Below, in pieces: positions 1,773 through 34,652 of a DNA stretch of 34,652 nucleotides (its first letter is position 1; every line of letters starts with the position of its first letter). Below the pieces are notes generated by a model. The model was not told the origin of the DNA. It did no database searches and saw only the letters and a list, made by a program, of their open reading frames with translations. Source of the stretch: a virus; the IMG/VR virus record IMGVR_UViG_3300025913_000080, positions 1 through 34,652 of that record; one strand, 5' to 3'. A program made the position numbers and the translations under genes.

Positions 1773-2584
1773 AGGAAGAAGTTGTGGTTCATACGGTGTC
1801 TGAACAGACCAGCGAGAGTGGACGCGAAGGCGCGCCACCAGACGAGGCCTTCATCATCGAAGACCCGGAATGGGTCATGACCTGGACGGCTGCAGAGCAG
1901 GAGCGCCACAACAAGCCGGCAGAGAAGCCCCGCTTCGAGGAGGAGCGGGGCCTGGCCGTGCTGCTTAACACTGAGGCGGTGTTCCTCAACGATCACTGGT
2001 GGAAAGACGACTGGCCGAAGGACGCGCGGCGGACGATCTCGCTGAACGTCAACTGCAACGACGTGTTCGCATGGGGCTGCGCCGACGCCGAAGAGATGAC
2101 ATACGCGGACATCGAGGATGTCTATCAGCACTGGAAGAAGGACCGCGTGAATGGGACGACCATCTGGTGCATCAAGCGCCGGAAAGAGTTGCCACAGCGT
2201 CCGGTCGCCAAATCCATTCAAGCCGGCGGCGTATGGGACTTGGATTCGCTGACGAATGAGTTCGGGCTGCGGCCGAACCACTACGACGGCGTGAGCGGCG
2301 TGTTCGCCGGCCGGAAGTATGCTGCCTACTGTGCTTGGATGGCATCGCTCGGAAAGAAGGCCGTCAAGTGGACCGCCGATTGGTGGCAGACCGGATGGAA
2401 GCCATTCACTGAGGCGCACCCTGATTGGTGCGACGATGCTTGGAAAGCTGCCGACGATGCTGCGCGCGAAAAGTGGCAGATTGACAACGGCCATGCTGAT
2501 GTTGGCGACGCGAAGCTGTCGTCCACGCTCGATACAGAAGACGCCCACCGTATGAACAATAATACTGATCGGACCACCCCATGA
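1769..2584 (+). CDS. Unrecognised early protein with a hairpin-repeat-encoded tail
   Basis: The product has 271 residues. The frame is open upstream, but the ATG at 1769 makes an ATGA overlap and begins plausible coding. It is rich in Trp and acidic residues, with blocks such as FLNDHWWKDDWPKDARR, VNCNDVFAWGCADAEE and WWQTGWKPFTEAHPDWC. No known fold was recognised. The last about 28 residues (GDAKLSSTLDTEDAHRMN...) are encoded by a hairpin repeat copy (2504-2526) and its conserved downstream sequence. A similar tail occurs on an unrelated gene at 31059, so the tail looks like an added module. Its stop overlaps the next ATG. Confidence 0.7.
   Translation: MKEEVVVHTVSEQTSESGREGAPPDEAFIIEDPEWVMTWTAAEQERHNKPAEKPRFEEERGLAVLLNTEAVFLNDHWWKDDWPKDARRTISLNVNCNDVFAWGCADAEEMTYADIEDVYQHWKKDRVNGTTIWCIKRRKELPQRPVAKSIQAGGVWDLDSLTNEFGLRPNHYDGVSGVFAGRKYAAYCAWMASLGKKAVKWTADWWQTGWKPFTEAHPDWCDDAWKAADDAAREKWQIDNGHADVGDAKLSSTLDTEDAHRMNNNTDRTTP
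2504..2526 (+). repeat. Hairpin repeat copy A
   Basis: GGCGAC (2504-2509) pairs with GTCGTC (2518-2523) across an 8-base loop, followed by CAC. It differs from copy B (31333-31355) at two positions that compensate each other in the stem (C-G versus T-A). The second pair is G.U in RNA sense. It lies inside the 3' end of the gene at 1769. The next about 33 bases, to the ATGAAC at 2552, resemble the sequence after copy C. Confidence 0.75.
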
Positions 2585-2853
2585 CCATGCTGGAGAGACT
2601 CGCGAGGGAAGAGCATGAGGGCTTGCGTCGGGTGTATCCTGGCCCGTCCTACGCCCCAGCGCCTGCTTGGGAAAACATGGCGGAGAGTTATCGCGTCGGT
2701 CGCATCCTAGGTGTGCGCCTGCTCTTAGAAGCCCTCCGCAACCCGGATGAGGGGATGCTGGAGGCGATCGGCGTTGGGCCTGATGAGACCGGATACGCCG
2801 AATGGCTGTACAGAGCCTACTTCGACCACATCCTCAATGAAGAAGCGGAATGA
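2581..2853 (+). CDS. Small unrecognised early protein
   Basis: The product has 90 residues and starts in an ATGA overlap. Predicted to be mostly helical, with a central WENMAESYRVGRILGVRLLLEAL helix and a C-terminus YFDHILNEEAE. The final codons (2830-2848) are duplicated exactly at 3605-3623. There the same frame would read ILNEEAGAE and then run into the ATG of the NusG-like gene. It therefore appears that this gene was once directly coupled to the NusG-like gene and that the cassette at 2854-3604 was inserted between them. Function unknown. Confidence 0.7.
   Translation: MTMLERLAREEHEGLRRVYPGPSYAPAPAWENMAESYRVGRILGVRLLLEALRNPDEGMLEAIGVGPDETGYAEWLYRAYFDHILNEEAE
2830..2848 (+). repeat. 19-bp direct repeat, left copy (cassette boundary)
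   Basis: Identical to 3605-3623. It encodes the C-terminal ILNEEA of the gene ending at 2853, and the TGA of the leftward cassette's last gene begins 6 bases later. The pair brackets the XRE cassette. Confidence 0.85.
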
Positions 2854-3051
2854 TCACAGCGCCTCCAAATCCTCGATCGTCATGGCTCCGCGCTCCATCA
2901 GCCGCAGGAGCAGCGCGACGCTACGAGGCACAGGAACGGCCCCGGTGGCCCAACGGCTCGGGGTCGACTTGTCGGTCTCCAGCAGACGCCCAAGGCGCGC
3001 CTGGGAGAGCCCGAGCGCGTCAAGGGTGGCGCGGTAGTCTTTCGAGGTCAT
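2854..3051 (-). CDS. XRE/Cro-type helix-turn-helix regulator
   Basis: The product has 65 residues. LDALGLSQARLGRLLETDKS followed by TPSRWATG is a clear helix-turn-helix of the Cro/CI type (about residues 9-37): helix two contains SQARLGRLL and the recognition helix covers KSTPSRWATG. The rest is a short helical tail, so this is a minimal DNA-binding protein without a cleavage domain. It is last in a leftward three-gene operon, its ATG overlapping the previous stop. It ends immediately against the stop of the rightward gene at 2853. The two palindromes at 3546-3604 are natural candidates for its operators. It may be the lysogeny switch or the regulator of a mobile cassette. Confidence 0.8.
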   Translation of the reverse strand: MTSKDYRATLDALGLSQARLGRLLETDKSTPSRWATGAVPVPRSVALLLRLMERGAMTIEDLEAL

Positions 3052-3257
3052 GCGACGGGCCGATACTGCTCGACAAGTTCGAGCCCGTCACCTTCGATAA
3101 CCTCGACCAGTGCGGCGCCCAAAGGGATCAGCGCCATCTTGGGCCAGTCACGCAAGCGCCCGTCTTTGCCATCGGTCGCGTGGCTGGCCCAAAAGCGCGC
3201 TCCGGCATGGGGACTATCCGGCCCCCATTGCCACAGGACGTTCAGCAGGAGGGCCAC
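3048..3257 (-). CDS. Unrecognised small protein of the XRE cassette
   Basis: The product has 69 residues. GTG at 3257 follows directly after the TAG of the preceding gene, and the stop overlaps the ATG of the XRE gene. The sequence has an aromatic N-terminal part (LWQWGPDSP, ARFWASHATDG), then PKMALIPLGAALVEVIEG, which looks like a short beta/hydrophobic segment. No family is recognised. Its place between two coupled genes suggests it works with the regulator, but this is only context. Confidence 0.5.
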   Translation of the reverse strand: MALLLNVLWQWGPDSPHAGARFWASHATDGKDGRLRDWPKMALIPLGAALVEVIEGDGLELVEQYRPVA

Positions 3258-3518
3258 CTAAGCGGCCCTCGCTGCCAGGGTCTCGACCTGAGCACGGGCG
3301 ACCCACCAGATGCGCTCCAGGTTGTTGAACCAGCTCAGTTCGGAACGAGTGTAGCCATACTTCGCGAAGGCGAGCAGTTCGGTGCGCTTCGCATTGCTGG
3401 CATTGGCGCAGGCGCGGCAGACCGCCGCCCAAGCTTGAACGGGGCGCTCGTTGCTCTCGCCGCGGATGATGCGGCCCTGAAGAGTGACGGCTTGTTGGTA
3501 GAAGCCTTCGGCGGTCAT
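3258..3518 (-). CDS. First gene of the XRE cassette, unrecognised
   Basis: The product has 86 residues, with ATG at 3518 about 24 bases downstream of a strong promoter -10 (3542-3547) and a GGAG ribosome site a few bases before it. The sequence is helical and Ala-rich with paired Cys (AAVCRACANASNAK) and a Trp-rich C-terminal part (SELSWFNNLERIWWVARAQ). No known family. As the promoter-proximal gene under two operator-like palindromes, it should be the most strongly regulated product of the cassette. Confidence 0.55.
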   Translation of the reverse strand: MTAEGFYQQAVTLQGRIIRGESNERPVQAWAAVCRACANASNAKRTELLAFAKYGYTRSELSWFNNLERIWWVARAQVETLAARAA

Positions 3519-3541
3519 CTGCGTGCTCCGTTGATGTCCCC

Positions 3542-3569
3542 ATCATACGCATTATGCGGAACGCGTCAA
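3542..3569 (-). promoter_or_regulatory. Sigma70-like promoter of the leftward XRE cassette
   Basis: Read on the minus strand, TTGACG (3569-3564) and TATGAT (3547-3542) are separated by 16 bases. The spacer contains the perfect palindrome CGCATTATGCG (3548-3558), so a regulator bound there would block polymerase. It drives the gene starting at 3518. Confidence 0.75.
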
Positions 3570-3604
3570 CGATGACTTGTGACCTTTCTACGCATTTTGC
3601 GGAA
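3546..3604. promoter_or_regulatory. Pair of operator-like sites
   Basis: Two 16-bp sites differ at one base: TACGCATTATGCGGAA (3546-3561) and TACGCATTTTGCGGAA (3589-3604). The core of each is a CGCA...TGCG palindrome, and centres are about 43 bp apart, close to four helical turns. The first sits between the -35 and -10 of the leftward promoter. The second ends directly at the right copy of the 19-bp repeat. Likely bound by the XRE protein at 2854-3051. Confidence 0.65.
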
Positions 3605-3623
3605 ATCCTCAATGAAGAAGCGG
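3605..3623 (+). repeat. 19-bp direct repeat, right copy (cassette boundary)
   Basis: Identical to 2830-2848. Downstream it reads GGGCGGAATGA, so the duplicated tail would end in an ATGA overlap with the gene at 3631, like other joints of the operon. Confidence 0.85.
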
Positions 3624-3630
3624 GGGCGGA

Positions 3631-4059
3631 ATGACACCCATCTACGCGCTATACGTCCAACACGAACGCAAGGCTGCAGAGGAGCTCGCGGAAGCCGGCT
3701 TCGAAGCCTGGGCGCCAACCTACAAGCGCTTGCGCCAACCGAGCCAGAGAAGCCGCCAGATCGCCAGCCTAATCGAGGCTCCGCTCTATCCCGGCTACGT
3801 GTTCGCCAGGATTCCGCCTGAGCGCATCTCGCACGCCAAAGCCTGCGAGCGCGTGATCGGCATCGTCAGCAGCAACGGCTTTCCGGCTGTGATCCCCGAG
3901 GATGTATTCGGCGGTGTGGTGGCGCTGGTGCTCTCGGGTAGGCTGGACGAGCGCTTGCCCTGGACGAAAGCCAGGCCGCGCGGCGTGCGGCGTCGTGGGC
4001 TTTCGGCGCTCAACGAGTGGTTCGAACTGGTGGGCCAGAACCTGCGACAAGCAGCCTGA
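3631..4059 (+). CDS. NusG/RfaH-like antiterminator (NGN domain only)
   Basis: The product has 142 residues. The N-terminal half matches the NGN domain of NusG, RfaH and UpxY-type elongation factors: IYALYVQHERKAAEELAE, then FEAWAPTYKRL, an Arg-rich segment, the hallmark APLYPGYVFARI (about 50-61), and VIGIVSSNGFPAVIPEDVF. In this family the domain binds the RNA polymerase clamp and suppresses pausing. The C-terminal part (about 100-142) shows no KOW-like motif and is basic (KARPRGVRRR), so it is not a full NusG. It lies at the end of the early operon and directly before the structured leader of the virion operon, which suggests operon-specific antitermination of late genes. That link is inference. 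Confidence 0.75.
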   Translation: MTPIYALYVQHERKAAEELAEAGFEAWAPTYKRLRQPSQRSRQIASLIEAPLYPGYVFARIPPERISHAKACERVIGIVSSNGFPAVIPEDVFGGVVALVLSGRLDERLPWTKARPRGVRRRGLSALNEWFELVGQNLRQAA

Positions 4060-4071
4060 GCCATAGGGCTT

Positions 4072-4108
4072 GCGTTCCGAAACGAACGCCACCACAATAT
4101 GCGGCGTT
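4072..4108 (+). promoter_or_regulatory. Two mutually exclusive hairpins in the late leader
   Basis: GCGTTC (4072-4077) can pair with GAACGC (4084-4089), while AACGCC (4085-4090) can instead pair with GGCGTT (4103-4108). The two stems share bases and cannot coexist, an attenuator-like arrangement. A further small hairpin, TGGC-CTA-GCCA, lies at 4128-4138. No U-tract follows any of them. Confidence 0.5.
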
Positions 4109-4146
4109 TATAGCCTGATCCGCTCACTGGCCTAGCCAGAAGATGC

Positions 4147-4195
4147 TTAGGGCGTGACAGCCCCATACACGGGGCAGAGCGAAGCTTTGCCCTAA
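4147..4195 (+). ncRNA. Three-way-junction RNA element in the late-operon leader
   Basis: TTAGGGC (4147-4153) pairs with GCCCTAA (4189-4195), closing two stacked hairpins: GCCCC/GGGGC (4160-4164 with 4171-4175, loop ATACAC) and AGAGC/GCTTT (4176-4180 with 4184-4188, loop GAA, one G.U). Only GTGACA (4154-4159) is unpaired at the junction. There is no following U-run, so it is not a simple terminator. It lies 112 bases before the first virion-operon ATG and just after the NusG-like gene, so a nut/put-like antitermination site or a pause element is plausible. The rest of 4060-4307 holds no gene that I can see. Confidence 0.6.
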
Positions 4196-4307
4196 CAGAC
4201 CGCGCACCGACAGGCCCTCACCCCCCCGACGCGATTCCTCCCCTAGGCGCGTCCCATTGAGCCAGTCGTGTGCGCGACCCATCAACTCAGCCTCTCAAGG
4301 AGCCACT

Positions 4308-4721
4308 ATGGCAACCGTTGACCGAGTGTTCCTCAACAAGCGTGGCGACGTGACTGCGATCCGCTCCAAGGTCGCCGCGGGCGTCACCCTGACCATGGCG
4401 GCAGGCGCCACCACCACGCTCAGCTTCACGCCACCGGAGGGTTCGCGTGTCTCGGCGATCAAGTGGCACACCGCCACCACCTTCACCGGCTCCCCGACCA
4501 ACATCTACCTGACCGTAGGCAAGACCGCCGGCGGACAGGACTACGTCGCCAACACCGACGTGAAGACCGCCACGGCCCCGACAGCGGCATCCCTGGTCGC
4601 CATTGCCGACTGGGCGTCCTGGCCCGTGCAGGCGATGTTCTGCACGCTCACGGCCAACGGCGGCACCAACCCGGCTGGAACCTGCGTGGTCGAAATCGAC
4701 TACGCCCCCGCCAACCCGTAG
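4308..4721 (+). CDS. Putative small virion protein (decoration or head-associated)
   Basis: The product has 137 residues. The ATG at 4308 is preceded by AGGAG at an ideal distance, so it is preferred over the upstream in-frame ATG at 4257. The sequence is Thr/Ala-rich and beta-like: VTLTMAAGATTTLSFTPPEG, YLTVGKTAGGQDYVAN, TCVVEIDYAPANP. It resembles the products of 6606 and 7094 in composition. First gene of the virion operon, before the terminase. A head decoration or other structural role is plausible, but no family motif is present. Confidence 0.55.
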   Translation: MATVDRVFLNKRGDVTAIRSKVAAGVTLTMAAGATTTLSFTPPEGSRVSAIKWHTATTFTGSPTNIYLTVGKTAGGQDYVANTDVKTATAPTAASLVAIADWASWPVQAMFCTLTANGGTNPAGTCVVEIDYAPANP

Positions 4722-4732
4722 GACCCGACACC

Positions 4733-5032
4733 ATGGGCTTCTACGAAGGCAGTCCTAACGTCCCGCGCGAGGGCATGGTTGTGATGCTCAAGAGCGGAGG
4801 CCCGCCCATGACGATCACTCGCGTCAGCGGCAACCCCGAAATCGTTGAATGCAAGTGGTTCGACCCCAGCACGCGGGAACTCAGCACCGCTCTTTTTGAC
4901 GTTCGCGCCCTCAGCCTGCGCCCAGACTGCGACGCGAAACACATCACCCGATCGGAGAAGCCCCATGGCCAAGAAGTCCAAGGGCAAGATGCCCCCGAAG
5001 TCGATGCCCAAGGGCAAGCCCGGCAAGGGTAA
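4733..5032 (+). CDS. DUF2158/YodC-like small protein
   Basis: The product has 99 residues. The core, GMVVMLKSGGPPMTITRV followed by VECKWFD and FDVRALSLRP, matches the DUF2158 (YodC-like) pattern: a short SH3-like beta protein with the signature LKSGGP-MT and a CxWFD strand. Family members are small and their role is not established. The last about 22 residues are encoded in the region that overlaps the Lys-rich gene at 4965 in another frame and look unstructured. No strong Shine-Dalgarno precedes the ATG, and the previous stop is 11 bases upstream. Confidence 0.65.
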   Translation: MGFYEGSPNVPREGMVVMLKSGGPPMTITRVSGNPEIVECKWFDPSTRELSTALFDVRALSLRPDCDAKHITRSEKPHGQEVQGQDAPEVDAQGQARQG

Positions 5033-5039
5033 GTGCTAG
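4965..5039 (+). CDS. 24-residue Lys/Pro-rich basic protein
   Basis: ATG at 4965 follows GGAG by 7 bases and the frame ends TAG at 5037-5039. The peptide is MAKKSKGKMPP followed by KSMPKGKPGKGKC, nearly half Lys and with no acidic residue. It overlaps the end of the preceding gene in a different frame. Tiny KGK/MPPK-rich proteins occur in other phages near terminase genes without known function. Its charge suggests nucleic-acid binding, which is inference. Too short for most gene finders. Confidence 0.5.
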   Translation: MAKKSKGKMPPKSMPKGKPGKGKC

Positions 5040-5065
5040 GACGGCCTCAGTGCCGTTGAGTGCCG

Positions 5066-5359
5066 ATGGCTGCGCCGAAAGGAACCAAACCGCCTGGCGG
5101 CTCTCGAAAGGGTCGCCCAAACAAGATCACGGCGGACATCAAAGCCCTCGCCCGAGAACATGGGGCAGCGGCGATTAAGGAACTCCTCCGCATCGCCACT
5201 GCGGCCGAGAACGACAGCACCCGCGTCGCGGCGATCAAGGAACTCCTCGACCGCGGCTATGGCAAGGCAACCCAGCCGATCAGCGGCGATGACGATGGCC
5301 CGCCTGTCCTGGTGGAGCTGAGGCGCACGATTGTCCGTCCTGGACATTCCAACCGCTGA
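5066..5359 (+). CDS. terS: Putative terminase small subunit
   Basis: The product has 97 residues from ATG 5066 (a GTG two codons upstream at 5060 is the alternative). It begins with a basic GTKPPGGSRKGRPNK tail, then a helical domain: ADIKALAREHGAAAIKELL, RVAAIKELLDRGYGKATQP. This GGSRKGRPNK...LLDRGYGKxxQ layout is typical of a phage protein found immediately upstream of large terminases, and a DNA-recognition role fits the position. It overlaps the large-subunit gene by 29 bases, so translation is probably coupled. Assignment rests on that pattern and gene order. Confidence 0.7.
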   Translation: MAAPKGTKPPGGSRKGRPNKITADIKALAREHGAAAIKELLRIATAAENDSTRVAAIKELLDRGYGKATQPISGDDDGPPVLVELRRTIVRPGHSNR

Positions 5360-6605
5360 AGTCTTCGAGCCGCTGCTAGCACCCGCCCGCTACAAGGGCG
5401 TGCATGGCGGTCGGGGATCTGGAAAGTCGCACTTCTTCGCCGGCCTGCTGGTTGAGGACAGCCTCTATCACAAGGGCTTGCGCTCGGTCTGCATCCGGGA
5501 AGTCCAAAAGACCCTGGCCCAATCGGCGAAGCTGCTGATCGAGGACAAGATCAGGGAGTACGGCCGGGCCTGCGACTTCCGCATATTCAACGACTGCATC
5601 GAAACGCCCGGCGACGGGATCGTGATCTTCAACGGGATGCAGGACCACACAGCGGAGTCGATCAAGTCGCTGGAGGGTTTCCACCGGGCCTGGGTCGAAG
5701 AGGCCCAGACGCTCACCGACCGCAGCCTGACGCTGCTTCGCCCGACCATCCGCGATGAGACCTCGGAGATTTGGGCGAGCTGGAACCCGAGGCGCAAGGT
5801 CGATGCGATCGACAAGTTCCTACGCCACAACGCGCCGCAAGACGCGACGGTGATCCAGGCCAACTGGCGAGACAATCCCTGGTTTCCGAAGGTGCTCGAA
5901 GCCGAGCGCCTACACGACCTGGAGCACTACCCCGACAGATACGACCACATCTGGGAGGGCGACTACGTCAAGGTGTTCGAAGGAGCCTACTTCGCCAAGC
6001 AGCTTGCCGAGTGCAGGCGCGAAAACCGCATCGGCAAGGTTGCCGCTGACCCGCTCCTCCCGCGCAAAGCCTTCTTCGATATCGGGGGCTCTGGCGCAAC
6101 GGCCGACGCCAACGCGATCTGGATCGTCCAGTTCGTCGACCGCGAAATCCGGGTGCTCGACTACATCGAAGGCCAGGGCCAGGTCCTGGGCTACTACGCC
6201 GCGGAGCTGAGAAAGCGCGGCCACGGCGACGTTCAAATCCACCTGCCCCACGACGGGGTCAACGAGAACAACCTCACCGGCAAGCGCTACGAGGACCATT
6301 GGCGCGAAGCCGGCTTCGACGTTCAGGTCATCAAGAACCAGGGCAAGGGCGCGGCGATGATGCGGATCGAGGCGGTCAGACGCCTCCTGCCGCGCATCTG
6401 GTTCAACGAGGCCACCACGGAAGCGGGCAGGGACGCCCTCGGCTCCTACCACGAGCGCAAGGACGACGAGCGCAACGTGGGCCTCGGCCCCGAGCACGAC
6501 TGGTCAAGCCATGCCGCCGACGCCTTCGGGCTGATGTGCGTCGCCTACGAAGAGCCGCGCAAGAAACACGAGCGGCTGGAAATCCCGAACTACGGAGCGG
6601 TGTGA
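5331..6605 (+). CDS. terL: Terminase large subunit
   Basis: The product has 424 residues and is the ATP-driven DNA packaging motor and headful nuclease. TTG at 5331 gives MSVLDIPTAEVFEPLL. Walker A is GGRGSGKS (26-33), Walker B HRAWVEEAQ (118-126) with its acidic pair, and a coupling motif WASWNP lies at 148-153. The nuclease domain shows FFDIGG (Asp250), PHDG (Asp308) and a final HDWSSHAADAFG (389-400), the RNase H-like acidic triad of PBSX-type (Terminase_3) enzymes. Length is normal for the family and nothing appears truncated. Confidence 0.95.
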   Translation: MSVLDIPTAEVFEPLLAPARYKGVHGGRGSGKSHFFAGLLVEDSLYHKGLRSVCIREVQKTLAQSAKLLIEDKIREYGRACDFRIFNDCIETPGDGIVIFNGMQDHTAESIKSLEGFHRAWVEEAQTLTDRSLTLLRPTIRDETSEIWASWNPRRKVDAIDKFLRHNAPQDATVIQANWRDNPWFPKVLEAERLHDLEHYPDRYDHIWEGDYVKVFEGAYFAKQLAECRRENRIGKVAADPLLPRKAFFDIGGSGATADANAIWIVQFVDREIRVLDYIEGQGQVLGYYAAELRKRGHGDVQIHLPHDGVNENNLTGKRYEDHWREAGFDVQVIKNQGKGAAMMRIEAVRRLLPRIWFNEATTEAGRDALGSYHERKDDERNVGLGPEHDWSSHAADAFGLMCVAYEEPRKKHERLEIPNYGAV

Positions 6606-7097: not shown

Positions 7098-7708
7098 GGC
7101 TCATCACTGGAAACAATGTGGCTGGCGGCCTCGGCGACGGCCAGGGCATCGATCAGCGCGCGACCCGCATGGGCGACCTCGTGGCGGACACCCTGGGCGG
7201 GCGCTATCAGGAGCTCGCCTCTCGCGGCAAGCTGTTCGTGGCCCATGCCATCGTCACCGCCCCGGTGATCTACTCCACCGCGGCCGGCACGGGTGGCCCG
7301 CTGCTCTACAACGGCGCGACGACCACGAATGCGGTCCTGCTCGGCGTCGGCTTCGGCGTGACGACCGTGACCACGGTTGCCGCGGCCCTGGGCATCACGG
7401 GCGGCCCGACCACGGCCCCGTCGTCCACCACGGCGATCGACTCGCGCTCGAACTGCCTGCTGGGCGGTGCGGCCTCGGGCGCCACGCCCTACCGCATCGG
7501 GACCGTCTCGGCGGCGGGGACGTTCTTCTTCCCGTTCGCGCATCTGCACACCGGCGCTCTGACCACGGACACCGCGGGCGTGCAGTGGTTCGACCTCGGC
7601 GGCATGTTCGTCGTGCCTCCGGGCTACTTCGCGAGCGTGGCGGCTTCGGCGACGGCGTCGACCACGGTCGCGTCCATCTCGATGCTCTACACGGAAGTGC
7701 CGGTCTAA
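7094..7708 (+). CDS. Putative structural protein
   Basis: The product has 204 residues starting with GTG in a GTGA overlap with the preceding stop. It has a polar N-terminus with GQGIDQRATRMGD, then strand-like segments: LFVAHAIVTAPVIYSTAAG, VLLGVGFGVTTVTTV, GTFFFPFAHLHTG, WFDLGGMFVVPPGYF. The Ala/Thr/Val/Gly-rich beta composition is like the gene before it. Placed between terminase and portal, a capsid-accessory role is likely, but no family signature is visible. Confidence 0.5.
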   Translation: MRLITGNNVAGGLGDGQGIDQRATRMGDLVADTLGGRYQELASRGKLFVAHAIVTAPVIYSTAAGTGGPLLYNGATTTNAVLLGVGFGVTTVTTVAAALGITGGPTTAPSSTTAIDSRSNCLLGGAASGATPYRIGTVSAAGTFFFPFAHLHTGALTTDTAGVQWFDLGGMFVVPPGYFASVAASATASTTVASISMLYTEVPV

Positions 7709-7711
7709 TCC

Positions 7712-26683: not shown

Positions 26684-27043
26684 ATGTGGCGCTATCAGCA
26701 GTCGACCGGCGATCTCTACCATCTCGGGTCCTACGAGGGGAAAGGCTACTCGGGTCATGGGGAGGGAGTGAACAACCACGCCCTCGAAGCTGACCAGGGT
26801 ATTGGTCCGATCCCGTGCGGGATGTGGCGGATTGGGCATTCACGCACCAGCCACAACACCGGGCCAATAACCATGGACCTAACACCGGTTGGTCACGACG
26901 CCAATGGCCGGTCCTTGTTCAGAATCCACGGCGATAATTCAGCAATGAACGAGACAGCCAGTCGGGGTTGTATTATACTAGGGCGGTCGATTAGGCAAGT
27001 GATTGCGATGAGCAACGACCACGACTTGCAGGTCTACCCATGA
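26684..27043 (+). CDS. L,D-transpeptidase-like (DUF2778/Tlde1-type) endolysin candidate
   Basis: The product has 119 residues. WRYQQSTGDLYHLGSYEGKG then YSGHGEGVNN, GPIPCGMWRIG, and IHGDN...ASRGCIILG (His82, Ser93, Gly95, Cys96) match the YkuD-like fold with the H-G...S-x-G-C-I catalytic motif, in the short DUF2778 variant. Enzymes of this type act on the peptide stems of peptidoglycan (exchange or carboxypeptidase reactions). No lysozyme or amidase gene is seen nearby, and holin and spanin genes follow, so this is the best endolysin candidate. No signal peptide, so it would need the holin. A non-lytic wall-modifying role cannot be excluded. Confidence 0.7.
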   Translation: MWRYQQSTGDLYHLGSYEGKGYSGHGEGVNNHALEADQGIGPIPCGMWRIGHSRTSHNTGPITMDLTPVGHDANGRSLFRIHGDNSAMNETASRGCIILGRSIRQVIAMSNDHDLQVYP

Positions 27044-28061: not shown

Positions 28062-28081
28062 GGCTGGAGGTCGGGCGCTAC

Positions 28082-28479: not shown

Positions 28480-28633
28480 CCGTTTCCAGCGCCCTCACAA
28501 TCCACCGATCATCCGGCCAGTAGCGCAACCAATACCCAGCAAGCCAATCTCCATTCCAAGCCCTCAAGCATGGAATACAGGACCCGAGGATAGGGGTCTT
28601 GCAACGGGGGCAGGGGTGGGCGAGGGCGCTCAT
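28460..28633 (-). CDS. Small zinc-ribbon, Trp-rich protein
   Basis: The product has 57 residues, with ATG 28633 in an ATGA overlap with the GIY-YIG gene. CPRCKTPILGSCIPC gives two CxxC pairs close together, followed by WNGDWLAGYWLRYWPDDRW, an unusually Trp-rich stretch. The 3' end runs into the terminator of the opposite strand, so the two transcripts converge here. No known family; a small metal-binding accessory protein. Confidence 0.55.
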   Translation of the reverse strand: MSALAHPCPRCKTPILGSCIPCLRAWNGDWLAGYWLRYWPDDRWIVRALETEKPPGL

Positions 28634-29091
28634 GGGCTCTCGATGAACCGGACCATGTCGTCGTCTGGCTTGAACCACTCGCCGCGGATACGACAGTCAG
28701 CCCACCGTCGATGGAATAGGCGCTCAAGGAAGAAGCCGGAAGTGTCCGGGACGACCTTTCTTAGCCGCAACGCGCTCGAGCTGCCGGTTTGGAGCTTTTG
28801 AAGCCTCTCCTCCACATTCATTGCGGAGCCGATCTTGATCAACCCGCTATCAACCGCCTCCACGAAATAGACATGCGTGGGGCGCAGCTCGCCTCGAGAT
28901 ATTCGTTCACTCATGGAAGCTGCCAGCCGGCGCCCGGATTGCGTTTTGTGGCCATCACAGGCGAACCTGTAGGACTCTTCGAACTCAGGCGTTCCGGGCT
29001 GGCCGAGAACGCGCATGCGCGACAGGCGGTGATAGAAGTAGTCGCCCCCATCCGGTCGCTTGATCCTCTGGACGTGGCGGTAGGAGGTCAT
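28630..29091 (-). CDS. GIY-YIG/T5orf172-type protein with integrase-like N-terminus
   Basis: The product has 153 residues from ATG 29091 (GTG 29109 is an alternative). Residues about 3-48 (RIKRPDGGDYFYHRLSRMRV, GQPGTPEFEESY) closely resemble the arm-binding N-terminus of alphaproteobacterial phage integrases. Residues about 73-140 (HVYFVEAVDSGLIKIGSAMN, VEERLQKLQTGS, ERLFHRRWADCRIRGEWF) match the T5orf172/Mug113 branch of the GIY-YIG fold. The gene sits immediately beside the attachment site. An integrase-domain/GIY-YIG fusion is therefore likely. Whether it cuts DNA is unknown. Confidence 0.65.
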   Translation of the reverse strand: MTSYRHVQRIKRPDGGDYFYHRLSRMRVLGQPGTPEFEESYRFACDGHKTQSGRRLAASMSERISRGELRPTHVYFVEAVDSGLIKIGSAMNVEERLQKLQTGSSSALRLRKVVPDTSGFFLERLFHRRWADCRIRGEWFKPDDDMVRFIESP

Positions 29092-29095
29092 CGAA

Positions 29096-29308
29096 GGTTT
29101 TACAGCCACGAAAAGTCCTCTAACGATTTCAAAGGGCCGGAGATCGGGCGTTTTGGACGCATCTCTTTGAGTCCGCTCAAGTCTATTCCGGTTTACACCC
29201 AGGAGGTCGGGGGTTCGAGCCCCTCGCCGCCCACCACGTTGTTTTATAACACGAAACGACCATTTCCGCGAGCGCCTTCAGGGGCTCGGTTTTACAGCCG
29301 TTTTACAC
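29096..29308. promoter_or_regulatory. Integrase arm-type site candidates around attP
   Basis: GGTTTTACAGCC occurs at 29096-29107 and again at 29288-29299. Related GGTTTACACC (29190-29199) and GTTTTACAC (29300-29308) lie at the core edge and beside the integrase stop. Four TTTACA-containing sites on both sides of the tRNA-like core fit the arm-type layout of lambda-like attP. A small hairpin, TTGAG/CTCAA, lies near 29167-29180. Confidence 0.5.
29198..29235 (+). other. attP core: 3' end of a tRNA gene
   Basis: The sequence has a T-arm with loop TTCGAGC (29214-29220) and stems GGGGG/CCCTC (one G.U), a 3' acceptor strand GCCGCCC, discriminator A and encoded CCA (to 29235). No 5' half of the tRNA precedes it. 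Phage genes lie on both sides and the integrase gene ends 67 bases away, so this is most likely the attP core matching the 3' end of a host tRNA whose acceptor begins GGGCGGC. Confidence 0.75.
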
Positions 29309-30340
29309 TTTCCCGTTCCGGCCGCGTTCCAGGTCCATGCGCCGGATACGATCCAGGAGGATTTCGTCACGCTTCACGTAGGCGTTGACGAGCCGTTCGA
29401 CCTGTTCCTCACCCCATGTCATAATCTCGGCAATTTCCCGGATGGAGAAGCCGGCGCGATAGAACATGGTCGCGGCGGTTCCCCTCAAATCGTGGAAGTG
29501 CAGGGGGATGCGCTCGCGGGCCAGCTTGTCTGGCGTCGACGGCTCGGCGCGCACAGCCTTGTTCCAGGAAGCGCCGAAGCCAGTCCCCCATGGCGTCCCC
29601 GCTTCGGTCGTCAGGACCGTCGTGGCGCGCTTGGGGATGCTGTCCAGCAACTCGCGCAGCTCGGCGTAGATCGGAATGAGCGTCGTCTTCCGGTGGCGGC
29701 TCTTGCCCGTGCTGATCTCGATCGCCAGCGGGCGGACATGCGACCACGACAGCCGCAGCAGATCGCCGCGGCGCAGGCCCGTGAGCGCAGCCAGGCGAGC
29801 CGCTCGGTAAACTTCCGGTGAGGCTCGCCGTTCAAGCTCGGCGAAATGCTCCGGCTCCCAAATCTTCGCGGCTCGGTTGGCCTTGTAGAGCCGGGGGATG
29901 TGCTTGCACGGCTCGCCGCTCAGAAGCCCCTCGGCTCGCCCGTAGGTCAGCAGCCGGGAGAACGCCTCCAGGGCCACGTCGGCGCTCCTGGGCGCGCTGG
30001 CGTAGCCGTCTCGCCAACGCCTAATGGCCGGGACCGCTTTGGGCTGGTCGAAGGCGCGAAGGGGCAGGGCGCCGAACTTTTCCTGGATCCGATCCAGCCA
30101 GCGCACCCATTCCTTGCGGGTCTTGTCAGAGAGCCCCTTGTAGGCCGCCGAAGCCTTGTAGGCGGCGATGAGCCCTGAGAGCTTGGACTTGTCGCCCTGG
30201 ACGCGCCCAGCGCGCGCGGCGGCCACTTCCTGTAGAAACTCTTCCGTGTCGGGCTTGGCCTTGAGCCTCGGACCGCCGCGCCAGGCGTAATGGTAGGTCC
30301 GCCCCTTGCTGACGACGGTGTGGACGCCCCTAATCCGCAT
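29303..30340 (-). CDS. int: Tyrosine recombinase integrase
   Basis: The product has 345 residues and recombines attP with the host tRNA attB. The N-terminus is an arm-binding domain (TYHYAWRGGPRLKAKPDTEE), then a core-binding helical domain (about 50-150). Catalytic residues are visible: Arg190 in TGLRRGDLLRLSW, Lys213 in TGKSRHRK, His283 and Arg286 in HFHDLRGTAATM, Trp309 in MTWGEEQ and nucleophile Tyr321 in RLVNAYVKRDE. Full length. The start overlaps the small gene upstream by 11 bases, and the 3' end touches arm-type repeats. Confidence 0.92.
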   Translation of the reverse strand: MRIRGVHTVVSKGRTYHYAWRGGPRLKAKPDTEEFLQEVAAARAGRVQGDKSKLSGLIAAYKASAAYKGLSDKTRKEWVRWLDRIQEKFGALPLRAFDQPKAVPAIRRWRDGYASAPRSADVALEAFSRLLTYGRAEGLLSGEPCKHIPRLYKANRAAKIWEPEHFAELERRASPEVYRAARLAALTGLRRGDLLRLSWSHVRPLAIEISTGKSRHRKTTLIPIYAELRELLDSIPKRATTVLTTEAGTPWGTGFGASWNKAVRAEPSTPDKLARERIPLHFHDLRGTAATMFYRAGFSIREIAEIMTWGEEQVERLVNAYVKRDEILLDRIRRMDLERGRNGKV

Positions 30341-30530: not shown

Positions 30531-30536
30531 GCCGGA

Positions 30537-30881
30537 TCACCGATTATACCGCGCGAGTTCGTTGGCGCGCTGTTCCAGCCAACCGCGGAAATCATTGGTG
30601 ATCCCCGCTCCGCGCCATGCGAGCCATGTCAGGCTGTAGCGCTTGGCATCCACGCCGAGATGCTGTCCCTTCATCCCACGATGAAGCAGCGGGGCGCTGA
30701 TCCGATCATAGACGATATCCGCGGCGATCGAGAGCCCCAGGCCTAGCAGCCGCAGGAAGCCCTCCGCATTAGACTGGGCGACGAAGGTCATGCGGGGCGT
30801 GTAGTCCCGTGACCAGCTCGGCGGTCCCTGCCTGCGCCAGGCGTTCTTCAAGACGAAGCGCCAGTCTGTCACCTTAGCCAC
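30537..30881 (-). CDS. Unrecognised accessory protein
   Basis: The product has 114 residues, with GTG 30881 overlapping the end of the upstream gene. Trp- and Arg-rich: DWRFVLKNAWRRQGPPSWSR, LRLLGLGLSIAADIVYDR, WLAWRGAGITNDFRGWLEQR. The start (WRFVLKNAWRR..PSWSRDYTP) recurs in small phage proteins of unknown role. No catalytic motif visible. Confidence 0.6.
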   Translation of the reverse strand: MAKVTDWRFVLKNAWRRQGPPSWSRDYTPRMTFVAQSNAEGFLRLLGLGLSIAADIVYDRISAPLLHRGMKGQHLGVDAKRYSLTWLAWRGAGITNDFRGWLEQRANELARYNR

Positions 30882-31059
30882 GCTGGTCCCCTGGGCGCCC
30901 GGCCCGAACTGTGAGTTTCAGACGTGGCTTGGCCTGGCGCTCTCGGGCGCGCCGAATGCAGTCGGGATCGGCCAGGATATCGGCGCACACTCGCCACGTG
31001 GCCGCTGCTGCGAGTGAAACCAGGACAAGGCCGACGACGCAGATCAGCTCGGTAAGCAT
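30874..31059 (-). CDS. Small single-pass membrane protein
   Basis: The product has 61 residues, with ATG 31059 overlapping the previous stop (ATGA); an in-frame GTG lies at 31062. One N-terminal membrane segment (LICVVGLVLVSLAAAATW, about 5-22) is followed by a basic cytoplasmic tail (RRARERQAKPRLKLTVRAG). Function unknown. Confidence 0.55.
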   Translation of the reverse strand: MLTELICVVGLVLVSLAAAATWRVCADILADPDCIRRARERQAKPRLKLTVRAGRPGDQRG

Positions 31060-31355
31060 CACTCTCCGTCCCCTGGGGGAGGGGGTTGGTTCATCCGGTG
31101 TTCTGCATCAGTATCGAGAGTGGACGATGCAAGTGCATCGCCATCCCCGATAAGGCTACCGATCTCTCTCAAGCTGTGTCTGTGTCGTTCGAACACGGCA
31201 GCGCTCGTCGCCGCGACAGCCTCCCAAAAACCGGGCGCCTTAGTTTCAGCGACGCATTCAGCGCAAATAGCGCAGCCGCCAGTATATGGCCCCATATCTT
31301 TGGCGCAGCCGCCACATAACAGCCTTCGTGTTGGCGATGCGAAGCTATCGTCCAC
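31059..31355 (-). CDS. Four-Cys zinc-ribbon protein bracketed by hairpin repeats
   Basis: The product has 98 residues if it starts at GTG 31355, which has GGAGG 8 bases upstream. ATG 31361 and GTG 31385 are in-frame alternatives. LLCGGCAKDMGPYTGGCAIC then AECV supplies the Cys pairs of a small zinc ribbon, loosely like the N-terminal zinc domain of ClpX. Hairpin copy B (opposite orientation) covers the start codon region, and copy C lies at the 3' end. It encodes a tail (GDGDALASSTLDT..EHRMN) similar to that of the gene at 1769. Its stop overlaps the next ATG. Confidence 0.6.
   Translation of the reverse strand: MDDSFASPTRRLLCGGCAKDMGPYTGGCAICAECVAETKAPGFWEAVAATSAAVFERHRHSLREIGSLIGDGDALASSTLDTDAEHRMNQPPPPGDGE
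31120..31142 (-). repeat. Hairpin repeat copy C
   Basis: On the minus strand GGCGATGC (31142-31135) pairs with GCATCGTC (31130-31123) around loop ACTT, followed by CAC and preceded by GGGGAT. Same G.U second pair as the other copies. It lies in the 3' end of the zinc-ribbon gene. The following sequence (CTCGATACTGA...CACCGGATGAAC) resembles that after copy A. Confidence 0.75.
31333..31355 (+). repeat. Hairpin repeat copy B
   Basis: GGCGAT (31333-31338) pairs with ATCGTC (31347-31352), loop GCGAAGCT identical to copy A, then CAC. It is oriented opposite to the gene it touches; its CAC is the reverse complement of the likely GTG start codon of that gene. Confidence 0.75.
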
Positions 31356-31433
31356 GGCCATTCCCTCCGCTACAGCGATATGCACTATACATTACTTTCA
31401 TGACGAAGAACCGTAGGAACTAGAGTCTTCCAT

Positions 31434-31772
31434 CTACTCCCCCCGAGCCGGAATGGCGGAATGCAACGTCGCAACGATCAATCGACAGTCGCCACAGACA
31501 AGATCGGCGGCAGTTCCATCTAGATGATCGACCACCATCGACTTTACTTCGAAGCACCCTGGACACCAAATGTGCTTGTGCTCCACTCCTCCTTGGGGAA
31601 GGAGCGCGAGAGCTTCTTTGAGTGCGGCGCGCAACGCGAAAACCAGACGCGCTTCGCCCCGAGGATTATCTGGGTCCCATTGGTCCTCAGCCGCGCAAAA
31701 CGCTTCGCAAGCGGAACCGACGGAGTCGTCAATCCAGTTTTTCACGATCTCGTCTGACCACTCAGCCGGCAT
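31434..31772 (-). CDS. Accessory protein with C-terminal zinc ribbon
   Basis: The product has 112 residues from ATG 31772, chosen because it overlaps the previous stop and has GGGGGAAG upstream. The acidic, Trp-containing N-terminus (MPAEWSDEIVKNWIDDSVGS) is followed by a helical middle (ARLVFALRAALKEALALLPQ). A zinc ribbon follows, CPGCFEVKSMVVDH then LVCGDC, with two CxxC pairs 19 residues apart. The region 31386-31433 upstream of the next gene is short and holds nothing clear. Function unknown. Confidence 0.6.
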   Translation of the reverse strand: MPAEWSDEIVKNWIDDSVGSACEAFCAAEDQWDPDNPRGEARLVFALRAALKEALALLPQGGVEHKHIWCPGCFEVKSMVVDHLDGTAADLVCGDCRLIVATLHSAIPARGE

Positions 31773-31944
31773 TGAGCTTCCCCCGAAGCGCCCGTGAATA
31801 TGCAGCTTCCATCGCGATTTCGGCGTTGTGCTGATTTTGGCAGATGCGATCCCACACCAAGACGCTGTTGCGCTTGATAATGGCCTGCCAGCGACCGTCT
31901 GGCAGTTGCACGACATCAGCGCCGAGAATGCCCCGCTTAGACAT
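31762..31944 (-). CDS. Small unrecognised accessory protein
   Basis: The product has 60 residues from ATG 31944, with GGAGG 8 bases upstream and an 8-base overlap with the previous gene. The sequence MSKRGILGADVVQLPDGRWQ continues as a compact domain with QNQHNAEIAMEAAYSRALRG. The VQLPDGRWxAIIK strand and C-terminal helix suggest a small alpha/beta protein. Family not recognised. Confidence 0.55.
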   Translation of the reverse strand: MSKRGILGADVVQLPDGRWQAIIKRNSVLVWDRICQNQHNAEIAMEAAYSRALRGKLNAG

Positions 31945-33091
31945 CTCTGGCCTCCAGGGCTTTGCGGGCGAGGACGAACACGTTCGACAATGGGTCGTCA
32001 TCGAGTGCGCCCTCGGTGAAATCCTTGATCTCCCGCAGAGCCCCCACCACCTCCCCGAGTCGAGACTGGATGCGGGAGATTGCTTCGCGCGCAGCCGAAA
32101 TCTTCTCGCCGGGGTAAGTTGCGGCACTGAGCGCCTCCCTCACCGCCTCGAACTCCGCGTCGAGTAAAGGGGCGGGGATCATTTTCCCGGCGTCGGCAAC
32201 ATGATCGGCTCGCGCTACTTCCTCAGGATGCACAAGGGACGGGGAGGCTGGCCACATATGCTCGCGCGGCTCGTATTGGCCATCAGTCAACCAACGGGGT
32301 TTCCCGACAAGCCATGCCGCCGCATCTTCGCGAGTGGTGAAGCGCATCGCCTCGTTCGGGTCATTGGTTGCAATCTTCTCGGCTCGGCGTCGAACCGGCA
32401 GGTCGCGCGCATGCTCCGCTAGGAACCTGTCAACATCGAAGCTCTTGTGGATGTAAAGAGGCGTGCCGGGGCCATCCATCCACACGTCCTCGATCAGCCA
32501 AGCCGTCTCGTTTGAAAGCGGTTGCGTGGGCTCCGTCGCCTGATGACTTCCAAGGGACGGCACGACACTACCACTACCTTCCTCCGTCCCTCCCGGTGCT
32601 GGTTGGAGGAGGGCGAGAGCTTCCTTCAGCCGGTTTTCTGACCAAGGAGTCATAGGCTCGCTGAGTGCGCTTTCGATCATAATCTTGGCGATGTCCGTAT
32701 CTGCGCCTGATGGGCGCGTCATCGCTTGAGGTGTTGGCTGAAGATTAACGTCAACGTGCTCAGTTGCCGTTGCCTGTTGCCAACCTTCGTAGGCGATCAG
32801 CGTCTCGGCATCCCGCTTCCGCGCGAACCGCAGCGCTTTCTGAGCGTCGCGCGTCCAGTTCTCCTGCCAGAGCCGAGGATCGATGGCTTGCCGCTCAGTC
32901 CAACTGGAGTGCGGAGCCGCCGCGTACCACTCGCCGCCGCGCTCGATCAGCCAATACCCAGCCTCTCGGTCCAGGCGGGCGGTGAGGGCGAGAACACAGC
33001 GGTCAACCAGTCGCGCAACCGTTGCGGGACGACAGTTGTAATCGTCGGGTGTGAGCGCGCGGAGATCGGCGATCAGGTCTTCGGTTGTCAT
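31937..33091 (-). CDS. Accessory protein with two WLIE-type repeats
   Basis: The product has 384 residues, starting in an ATGA overlap. Two related domains are visible: GYWLIERGGEWYAAAP with WTRDAQKALRFARKRDAETLI (about 45-102), and AWLIEDVWMDGPGTPLYIHK with NDPNEAMRFTTREDAAAWLVG (about 195-265). Each has WLIE, an aromatic strand and an A.RF..R.dAe helix. This unit occurs singly in many phage proteins of unknown function. A helical C-terminus follows (EAVREALSAATYPGEKISAA, LGEVVGALREIKDFTEGAL). Large accessory protein; role unknown. Confidence 0.65.
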   Translation of the reverse strand: MTTEDLIADLRALTPDDYNCRPATVARLVDRCVLALTARLDREAGYWLIERGGEWYAAAPHSSWTERQAIDPRLWQENWTRDAQKALRFARKRDAETLIAYEGWQQATATEHVDVNLQPTPQAMTRPSGADTDIAKIMIESALSEPMTPWSENRLKEALALLQPAPGGTEEGSGSVVPSLGSHQATEPTQPLSNETAWLIEDVWMDGPGTPLYIHKSFDVDRFLAEHARDLPVRRRAEKIATNDPNEAMRFTTREDAAAWLVGKPRWLTDGQYEPREHMWPASPSLVHPEEVARADHVADAGKMIPAPLLDAEFEAVREALSAATYPGEKISAAREAISRIQSRLGEVVGALREIKDFTEGALDDDPLSNVFVLARKALEARDV

Positions 33092-33315
33092 GGGCGGTCC
33101 TTCGAAAGGCTGACACGTCGTTTGTGAATGTTGATGTCGTTAGCCGCCATCCGGTCAGCAATGGCGTTGGCAAGCGCGCGACCCTCAGTCCAATCAGGGT
33201 CATCCTTGCATGGGCGCGGCCAATGATTTGGCCGGCCACAATGCTGGCAAAGATCAAGCGGACGCAGCATCGTCCCCTCCCACGTCGTGGTGAAGCTGGG
33301 CGAGGGCGCGCTCAT
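33088..33315 (-). CDS. Small protein with CCHC zinc-knuckle spacing
   Basis: The product has 75 residues, ATGA overlaps at both ends. LCQHCGRPNHWPRPCK gives C-x2-C-x4-H-x4-C, exactly the spacing of retroviral-type zinc knuckles, which bind single-stranded nucleic acid. The rest is charged and helical (EGRALANAIADRMAANDINI). The match is to spacing only; such knuckles are rare in phages, and a simple metal site is the alternative. Confidence 0.6.
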   Translation of the reverse strand: MSAPSPSFTTTWEGTMLRPLDLCQHCGRPNHWPRPCKDDPDWTEGRALANAIADRMAANDINIHKRRVSLSKDRP

Positions 33316-33431
33316 CGGCCATCGTCGGACACCTTCGGAGGGGTCAGCCTCTCCTTGGCTTGTTCCCAGTCGGTTATGGGAGGAGTCATGTATTGCTTCC
33401 CGCCGCTTCGCGTTGCTTCGCTAGACTTCAT
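33312..33431 (-). CDS. 39-residue accessory protein
   Basis: ATG 33431 to TGA 33312, the stop overlapping the next ATG (ATGA). The sequence MKSSEATRSGGKQYMTPPIT continues DWEQAKERLTPPKVSDDGR; polar, probably with one short helix. It starts just after hairpin copy D. Too short for most gene finders. The overlap is the main support. Confidence 0.45.
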   Translation of the reverse strand: MKSSEATRSGGKQYMTPPITDWEQAKERLTPPKVSDDGR

Positions 33432-33442
33432 CGACAACAGTG

Positions 33443-33472
33443 GTGGACGCGGAGCCTCAATAGCTCCGCGCC
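33443..33472 (-). repeat. Hairpin repeat copy D
   Basis: On the minus strand GGCGCGGAGC (33472-33463) pairs with GCTCCGCGTC (33455-33446), a 10-bp stem with loop TATTGAG, then CAC, preceded by GGGGAT. It begins 9 bases after the TAG of the Acb2-like gene, so this copy is intergenic. Same conserved ends and G.U pair as the others. Confidence 0.8.
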
Positions 33473-33480
33473 ATCCCCGA

Positions 33481-33729
33481 CTAGCTGGTGAGTTCCTTCA
33501 CCGCCCACATGACGGCTTCTTCCAGAGCGGTGATGCCGAGCGAGCGGTAGCGGCCGGGCTTCACCGTCTGAAACAGGTTCAGCAGTTCTGTCGCCTTGGA
33601 CTTGATGTCGTCGTGCAGCGTCTTCTCGTTGTCGGTGAGCGCTCTATAGGTCGGCCGAAATGGATTCTGCGACGGATTGGGGCTCGCGGACTGGCGGCCA
33701 TCGGTCGCGCCTTCGTAAACGTTGGTCAT
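33481..33729 (-). CDS. Acb2/Tad1-like anti-CBASS or anti-Thoeris sponge protein
   Basis: The product has 82 residues from ATG 33729, with AGGAGA 7 bases upstream; ATG 33747 is an in-frame alternative. NPFRPTYRALTDNEKTLHDD, IKSKATELLNLFQTV and the terminal ALEEAVMWAVKELTS match the small helical Acb2/Tad1 family: two helices, the second ending LEEAVMWAVK. Known members bind and sequester cyclic nucleotides or gcADPR-type signals and so block CBASS or Thoeris immunity. The gene lies in an accessory operon, as is usual for anti-defence genes. Ligand and activity here are inferred from family likeness. Confidence 0.7.
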   Translation of the reverse strand: MTNVYEGATDGRQSASPNPSQNPFRPTYRALTDNEKTLHDDIKSKATELLNLFQTVKPGRYRSLGITALEEAVMWAVKELTS

Positions 33730-33739
33730 GGGATGTCTC

Positions 33740-34033
33740 CTAGGCATGGCCCGCGGGTTGCAGGCGCGCCTCTATTCGGGCAAGAATGTCTTTAAGCATT
33801 GTACGCACGTCTAGTTTATCAGCGTTGCTGATGTAGTTGAAGCGCCCTTCCTCACCAAAGTTGAATGTGGTAAGAAAGAATCCGATCTTCTTCTCGGACG
33901 CGGGGCAATCAATCCCGTTGAACACCTCATCCAGCGTCTTGGCGAGCGCGTTCATCAGGTCGTGCAGAGCCGGGTCAATCGGCCCGTGATCGGCGCTCTG
34001 CGGGTGCGCGCGGCGGCGTTTTGCTTTGCCCAT
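33740..34033 (-). CDS. Conserved phage accessory protein of unknown function
   Basis: The product has 97 residues, its start sharing one base with the previous TAA. Basic start (GKAKRRRAHPQ), then helix LHDLMNALAKTLDEVFNG, a strand region KIGFFLTTFNFGEEGRFNYI, and SNADKLDVRTMLKDILARIE. The F..GE.GR.NYISNADR/K-D pattern recurs in small phage proteins and often lies beside Acb2-like genes. Function not known. Confidence 0.65.
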   Translation of the reverse strand: MGKAKRRRAHPQSADHGPIDPALHDLMNALAKTLDEVFNGIDCPASEKKIGFFLTTFNFGEEGRFNYISNADKLDVRTMLKDILARIEARLQPAGHA

Positions 34034-34449
34034 TATCTGAACGTGTTCCTTGATTGGAGGGGCCGTTTCGAGGGCTCTCGCGGCTGTGTAAGCCGGCTCT
34101 GCCTTTTGGCTTTCGCTATGCGCGCGATGTCAGCCCGAGTTTTCGTTCGGTGGCAGGCGACGCACCTCAGCTCGCGGTTCCCGACCGTCTCCGGGCCGCC
34201 CAGGGCCAGTGGGACGCGATGGTCTAACTCCATCTCGGAAAGCATGAACTTGCCGCCACAGGCCACGCAGCGCCCTTGCTGAGCCACGAAGGCGTCCAGC
34301 TTCTGCCGTGGCGTGAAGCGCCGCTCTGTCCCCTCTCCCGGAGTCCCGACGACTTTTGGATTGGCGGCTCGGTCTTCAGCCTCGAAGCGCTTTAGCTCCC
34401 GAAGCTCGGCCTCCAACGCTCTACGGCGGATATGGGTGGGGGAGGTCAT
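34033..34449 (-). CDS. HNH endonuclease
   Basis: The product has 138 residues, ATG in an ATGA overlap. CVACGG (61-66), ELDHRVPLALGG (74-85, with the catalytic His of the DH pair), Asn91 and CVACH (96-100) form a full HNH motif with its structural zinc Cys pairs. The N-terminus is helical and charged, and the C-terminus basic. In phages such enzymes serve in DNA packaging, recombination or as mobile elements. Its distance from terminase makes a packaging role unsure. Confidence 0.85.
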   Translation of the reverse strand: MTSPTHIRRRALEAELRELKRFEAEDRAANPKVVGTPGEGTERRFTPRQKLDAFVAQQGRCVACGGKFMLSEMELDHRVPLALGGPETVGNRELRCVACHRTKTRADIARIAKAKRQSRLTQPREPSKRPLQSRNTFR

Positions 34450-34652
34450 GGGGTCATCCCGCCGCTGCGCTGCACCTCACCTTGTTCCGCGGTGGACGCG
34501 GAAGACGCGCCATCCCCGAAGATGCGATGACTACTCAGATCGAGCGCCGTCTTTAGTCGCCTGAGGGCCAGTTCTCGATGTTCTGACTTTCCAGTCATGA
34601 GCGCGTCGTTCGCGATGCGGAGCGCTTGCACCAAATGAGGCCAACGCGTGCG
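34446..34652 (-). CDS. Unrecognised accessory gene cut by the window end
   Basis: The frame is open to the window edge on the minus strand and reads LVQALRIANDALMTGKSEHR, then ELALRRLKTALDLSSH, a helical pair, before the hairpin-encoded tail IFGDGASSASTAEQGEV...GGMTP. TTG 34634 is only a possible internal start; the true start may lie outside. The stop overlaps the HNH start. The tail is again encoded by a hairpin repeat (copy E). Confidence 0.55.
   Translation of the reverse strand, partial: RTRWPHLVQALRIANDALMTGKSEHRELALRRLKTALDLSSHRIFGDGASSASTAEQGEVQRSGGMTP
34492..34511 (-). repeat. Hairpin repeat copy E
   Basis: On the minus strand GGCGCG (34511-34506) pairs with CGCGTC (34500-34495) around loop TCTTC, then CAC, preceded by GGGGAT. 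It lies at the 3' end of the gene that the window cuts. Conserved ends and G.U pair as in copies A-D. Confidence 0.7.

Follow-up and report, generated by a model that had tools for sequence, protein, structure and literature searches.

REP repeats and the ends of IS200-IS605 elements fold into an imperfect hairpin in which one unpaired base and the foot sequence are conserved, and integron attC sites are marked by the R boxes RYYYAAC/GTTRRRY. Such attC sites are bulged hairpins with a conserved base and a variable top, tied to gene cassettes (PMC3053210). Rickettsia palindromic elements (RPEs) are chromosomal repeats of ~150 bp that lie in frame within unrelated protein genes (PMC10969869). 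In cluster K mycobacteriophages, the start-associated inverted repeats SAS/ESAS (13 bp, GGGATAGGAGCCC) are found at translation starts, nearly all in one orientation, at 11-19 copies per genome (PMC3203893). In cluster O mycobacteriophages, two short repeat copies flank gene 60 of YungJamal and a single copy stands at the junction in relatives without the gene; the legend of that paper calls these repeats "inverted", its text "direct" (PMC4351075). Here we describe a hairpin element of ~65-70 bp from the soil phage recorded as IMG/VR virus record IMGVR_UViG_3300025913_000080 (34,652 bp, GC content 64.5%), referred to in full as the window. The element is a new, rare, phage-borne family akin to known gene-boundary or in-frame palindromic repeats, of which the Rickettsia elements and the cluster K repeats are the nearest.

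The original prediction listed five hairpins of the form GGCG-...-CGTCCAC in the window, all of which are present. We found a sixth copy with a perfect stem (1818-1836, GGCGCG-CCTT-CGCGTC), as well as a seventh copy of the same phage just past the window end, G001:93(+) or L093 1687(+). G001 (IMGVR_UViG_3300009093_000095) is essentially the window phage, with 100% identity to window 17-4196 and 99.98% identity across the 12.6 kb compared, and reaches ~4.5 kb upstream of the window start, while contig L093 joins the window end (93.6% identical) to the G001 start (98.7% identical). The pattern GGCGN{6,26}CGTCCAC was observed nine times in the window for 1.33 expected, a count reached in none of 100 shuffles; the matches at 7400, 16620 and 16624 were dropped for want of a proper stem or context. 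No qualifying hairpin was found between 4 and 29 kb of the window, in agreement with the proposed restriction to early and accessory genes as opposed to virion genes.

Comparison of the copies revealed that the element is larger than first described. It reads (TCGGGGA)TGGCG, stem-loop, CG(T)CCAC, a linker of ~20 nt and then CCCGGGATGAACC, so that conservation extends beyond the earlier motif to TCGGGGA before it and to (C)CGGGATGAACC ~20-26 nt after it. The spacing from CGTCCAC to GGATGAAC is nearly fixed, usually 23-26 nt. When contigs were picked by the sequence blocks alone, with no selection for a stem, those with the family spacing nearly all had perfect stems and those with other spacings almost never did. 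Furthermore, the compensating stem changes noted earlier proved real. The stem base is conserved, whereas the upper stem varies and stays perfectly paired. Among 13 family members the first two variable stem pairs are seen as A-U, C-G, G-C and U-A; 15 changes affect both sides of a pair, none affects one side alone, and every pair stays intact. All are Watson-Crick (G.U in 0 of 26 cells), and the covariation score is 0.399 compared to 0.071 when shuffled, with 100% of cells paired.

The second stem pair had been described as an invariant G.U. Although every copy does have a G opposite a T, the minimum-energy fold joins UGG to CCA, so that the T (A on the other strand) is bulged, and in these predicted folds the position is better read as an invariant one-base bulge, T in TGGCG..CGTCCA and A in the complement. 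For each element tested, DNA folding gave the same one-base-bulge hairpin on both strands at nearly equal energy. The loops are not conserved, and several contain GCGAAGC or a GAA triloop. GCGAAGC, an unusually stable DNA mini-hairpin, lies within the stem-loops of window copies 2504 and 31333 and of those in contigs L029, L093, L344 and L477.

To find copies elsewhere, IMG/VR was scanned with patterns, and matches were kept only if they had a perfect stem plus the family flanks or tail, short patterns alone giving mostly chance matches. Further copies were found in L029, L041 (G004), L271 (G005; two copies), L289 (G006), L296 (G007), L071 (G008) and L344 (G400). One more lies in the Caulobacterales genome L477 (G754), inside a prophage whose terminase shares ~47-51% identity with the terminases of the window phage and G008. 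Adding the six window copies and G001:93 brings the total to 16 distinct copies in ~10 phages, of which the ~9 other than the window phage are mostly distantly related. Since the external copies were partly selected for a stem, the strongest independent statements are those on the window copies.

A weight matrix built from the non-window copies only gave the six window copies scores of 19.9-45.5, and none of 100 dinucleotide shuffles of the window contained a site scoring at least 19.9. The sole other window site above 12 scored 16.3, at 27004, and has no stem; in ~300 kb of relatives, scores above 20 corresponded to known copies only. Similarly, the covariance model CM R1, built from 13 copies, recovered the left-out copies, namely the two window copies outside its training set (see the table) and that of L071 (E=5e-5), the best unrelated match having E=0.16. 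The refuting outcome named in the original prediction thus did not arise, as the covariance search returned further gene-boundary copies in other phages as well as left-out window copies. In agreement with the view that these covarying gene-boundary hairpins are not a described family, the window has no Rfam match above the gathering score; weak Rfam matches in 30900-34652 are unrelated. No clear copy was found in Bradyrhizobium phage ppBeUSDA76-2, the nearest by terminase. A host repeat search of 385 alphaproteobacterial genomes returned a single chance-like match. Among Caulobacterales genomes (398 at order level and 299 at family level, in overlapping sets), the sole clear copy was that of the L477 prophage. 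A host REP repeat was thus rejected, as model matches outside the prophage look like chance matches in coding sequence.

Placement of the copies relative to open reading frames (ORFs) on both strands revealed a strict orientation rule. Ten copies stand in sense orientation at the 3' end of a gene (window 2504, 31120, 33443 and 34492; L029; L271 6736; L289; L296; L344; L477) and the other six in antisense orientation at the 5' end (window 1818 and 31333; G001:93/L093 1687; L041; L271 6319; L071), with no exception among the 16 (P ~1e-4; 5e-4 after removing near-duplicates). Consequently, the TCGGGGAT side always faces the gene body and the GGGATGAACC side always points outward. Placement at gene ends or starts, as first described, was thus borne out, except that the copies lie more often inside coding sequence than between genes. 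The reading frame continues through the element inside unrelated genes and the fusions are mostly in frame, two copies (window 33443 and L289) standing just past a stop codon instead.

As a result of this strict orientation, several genes, and once a two-gene block, lie between inverted copies. There are four clear inverted pairs: around gene 1769-2584, around ORF 31059-31385, whose N-terminus VDDSFASP and C-terminus GDGDALASSTLDTDAEHRMN are both element-encoded, around a block of a 66-aa ORF and a helix-turn-helix gene in L271/G005, and around a single 155-codon ORF in L093, where copy 34492(-) has G001:93(+) as its antisense partner at the 5' end. Pairing over long range, with one end of a gene folding onto the other, was dismissed as a general feature, as fully complementary outer ends are found at 1769-2584 only.

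Comparison with homologues indicates that the element is an addition to these genes. In Xanthomonas phage XacN1, the protein homologous to that of 1769-2584 can be aligned with the core alone (residues 52-241) and stops where the 3' element begins. The homologue of the L029 protein in Agrobacterium phage Atu_ph08 has no element stretch at its end, and proteins homologous to that of G004, among them one from Sinorhizobium phage NV1.1.1, start just past the element-encoded leader. Element-free homologues are thus available for three genes; for the element-bearing genes of L093 and L477, no homologues of any kind were found beyond the same phages or genome. Furthermore, the related phages G004 and G005 are mostly 65-79% identical where they align, and the element is a shared 85-bp island (86% identity, 40 nt exact) between flanks that are unrelated on both sides. 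An identical 23-mer is found in sense at gene ends in L029 and at window 2504, and in antisense at a gene start in L093/G001.

Table. Copies of the element and genes discussed in the window. CM, covariance model CM R1 (bits; E value; T, copy in the training set; O, copy outside it); PWM, position weight matrix score with window copies left out.
Feature	Position	Strand	Sequence or match	Placement	CM	PWM
Element copy, absent from the earlier list	1785-1844	-	Hairpin 1818-1836, GGCGCG-CCTT-CGCGTCCAC; tail CACCGTATGAACC	Antisense, 5' end of gene 1769-2584	41.1; 1.1e-7; T	26.4
Element copy	2496-2559	+	Hairpin 2504-2526, GGCGAC-GCGAAGCT-GTCGTCCAC; tail CACCGTATGAAC	Sense, in frame, 3' end of gene 1769-2584	58.2; 4e-12; T	22.0
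Element copy	31087-31150	-	Hairpin 31120-31142, GGCGATGC-ACTT-GCATCGTCCAC; tail CACCGGATGAACC	Sense, in frame, 3' end of gene 31059-31385	57.9; 5e-12; T	45.5
Element copy	31325-31387	+	Hairpin 31333-31355, GGCGAT-GCGAAGCT-ATCGTCCAC; tail diverged	Antisense, 5' end of gene 31059-31385	26.7; 6e-4; O	
Element copy	33410-33480	-	Hairpin 33443-33472, 10-bp stem GGCGCGGAGC/GCTCCGCGTC	Begins immediately past the stop codon of the Acb2/Tad1-like gene	24.6; 0.002; O	
Element copy	34450-34519	-	Hairpin 34492-34511, GGCGCG-TCTTC-CGCGTCCAC; tail GCGGGATGACC	Sense, in frame, 3' end of a gene running off the window (155 codons in L093)	43.1; 3e-8; T	
Gene	1769-2584	+	271 aa; no Pfam/PHROG match	Within an inverted element pair		
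Small Cys-rich ORF	31059-31385	-	No Pfam/PHROG match	Inverted elements form its ends		
Acb2/Tad1-like gene	33481-33747	-	PF24729 hairpin domain, E=8.9e-16	Directly upstream of element 33443-33472		
NusG-domain protein	3631-4059	+	PF02357, E=3e-10; phrog_6386 transcription antiterminator			

Like RPEs, the element is a short palindromic sequence found in frame within unrelated protein genes whose reading frame is kept, but at 65-70 bp it is phage-borne, is confined to gene ends and obeys a strict orientation rule. With SAS/ESAS it shares its restriction to phages, an inverted-repeat part next to a conserved G-rich motif, and a location at gene boundaries among non-structural genes. In contrast to these repeats, which mark translation starts nearly always in one orientation, the element also occurs at 3' ends (10 copies) and in both orientations (the other 6 being antisense, at 5' ends), and its stem sequence varies while pairing is kept. 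The YungJamal locus likewise has one phage gene between two short repeat copies, but at one locus only and without a recurrent hairpin family. The element resembles REP and IS200-IS605 ends in having a hairpin with a conserved unpaired base and a conserved foot. It differs from them in its low copy number, its absence from host chromosomes except for one prophage, the lack of a Y1 transposase in the phages, and a conserved foot that points inward in pairs. Bulged hairpin, conserved base, variable top and association with gene cassettes recall attC; however, the element forms inverted pairs around cassettes instead of one site per cassette, no integron integrase is linked to it, and its conserved ends read GTTCATCC/GGATGAAC, with no GTTRRRY box. 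Membership in the REP/IS200-605 or attC groups fails on features tested here, although the phage element may work in a similar way.

We favor the explanation that the element is a phage-borne DNA boundary sequence of ~65-70 bp closing off small gene cassettes at their ends, and we give its mechanism about an even chance of being correct. It fits the strict orientation, the block of two genes between copies, the conserved island in G004 and G005 and the homologues that lack the element. That the same side always points toward the gene suggests a boundary tag used in phage gene shuffling. Copies would serve exchangeable cassettes as terminal inverted repeats or as joints for recombination, with movement either by homologous or annealing recombination between copies in different phages or through an enzyme recognizing the bulged hairpin in single-stranded DNA. 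The conserved bulge would be consistent with recognition of a folded single strand or with annealing during recombination. We propose that insertions are retained since the frame required at the site stays open through the element and the overlapping stop and start with the next gene are often preserved. A broader version, in which temperate alphaproteobacterial phages would hold small accessory genes between inverted, strand-asymmetric bulged DNA hairpins and shuffle them in an integron-like manner without a resident integrase of known type, seems unlikely to us.

Several observations weigh against cassette ends. Eight copies lack a clear inverted partner; L029, G006 and G007 have degenerate candidates for one, two of the three above the 95% background level and that of L029 just under the 90% level. 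Members of a pair are no more alike than random members of the family, and the gene calls on which placement rests are ORFs called in this analysis. No recombinase or transposase partner was found. In particular, a Y1 transposase (PF01797) was detected in none of 10 element-bearing records, some of them partial, a host-encoded enzyme not having been searched for. The contigs compared included no closely related empty site and no clean pair of empty and occupied sites, and inspection of the pairs by eye showed no target-site duplication. An RNA or protein-binding role may also exist on top of mobility.

How phages gain and swap small accessory genes is a long-standing question, and one copy here adjoins an anti-CBASS-like gene. 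Sequences dedicated to such boundaries have been proposed before, but a recurrent one that is constrained in orientation and spans distantly related phages has rarely been observed. Provided that this element does end cassettes, it gives a sequence handle for finding such cassettes and testing their movement.

The main competing explanation, that of a transcribed cis-acting mRNA hairpin in early and accessory operons (a 3'-end stabilizer, processing site or protein-binding site), we consider unlikely. It would account for the covariation of the hairpin, for the 10 sense copies at gene 3' ends near the start of the next gene and for the predicted RNA folds. Selection on a transcribed hairpin, as put forward in the original prediction, was nonetheless not supported, given the six antisense copies at gene 5' ends, the equal stability of both DNA strands, the lack of wobble in the two variable stem pairs and the unconserved loop. 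Moreover, the RNA of the whole 80-nt element folds mostly no better than shuffled sequences and there is no terminator T-run. The strict orientation, antisense copies included, together with the element-free homologues, argues against a purely transcribed-RNA function. Among the three roles offered at the outset, a REP-like mobile hairpin came nearest. An intrinsic terminator was rejected, as no T run follows CGTCCAC in any window copy and the three terminator-like sites of 30900-34652 lie elsewhere.

Two conserved blocks at near-fixed spacing, confined to non-structural regions, could also be read as half-sites (CGTCCAC and GGGATGAACC, ~20 bp apart) for a phage DNA-binding protein such as a repressor, stoperator-binding or replication protein, in the manner of the dispersed regulatory sites of mycobacteriophages mentioned in PMC3203893. 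We find this quite unlikely, since it leaves unexplained the perfectly paired, covarying stem of variable length, the in-frame position at gene ends and the orientation rule, and most of the phages have only one or two copies.

The window phage encodes a NusG-domain protein (see the table), for which the element could have been an antitermination or RNA-loading site comparable to RfaH-ops or LoaP. This possibility is very improbable and largely refuted: the NusG domain is confined to the window phage species among the seven phages with the element that were tested, and is also found in 2 of ~40 unselected contigs, and antisense copies would not load a sense-strand factor. That the repeat reflects conservation of an N- or C-terminal peptide, with DNA similarity as a by-product, is hardly credible despite common tails (e.g., GDGDAKLSST) and leaders (e.g., SASGRGAVAHAIPEAE), as the same DNA is read from either strand and in more than one frame (SRDEP, HRMNQ), 40 of 40 core nucleotides are identical between G004 and G005, which are mostly 65-79% identical where they align, and stem complementarity has no coding reason.

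The window phage has an SU10-type portal and capsid, a Terminase_3 large subunit and a tyrosine integrase. Judging from its domain, the Acb2/Tad1-like product is likely a cyclic-nucleotide sponge acting against CBASS/Thoeris-type defence. The tyrosine integrase gene (29303-30340(-)) adjoins a sequence at 29181-29245(+) that resembles the 3' half of a tRNA, ends in ...GCCCACCA and is a probable attP; several plasmids carry similar sequences (81-89% identity) at places without a listed gene. Other genes encode a T5orf172/MUG113-domain protein (28630-29109(-)), an HNH endonuclease (34033-34449(-)) and, after the tail genes, a Tlde1-domain protein that is possibly a lysis enzyme (26684-27043(+), PF10908, E=7.8e-11). 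Finally, at ~34640-35450 of G006 (contig L289), a second start-associated repeat block (CGTTTCACTCCGACCCGAG..) precedes two adjacent gene starts, just downstream of CCCGGGAYGA-type motifs.

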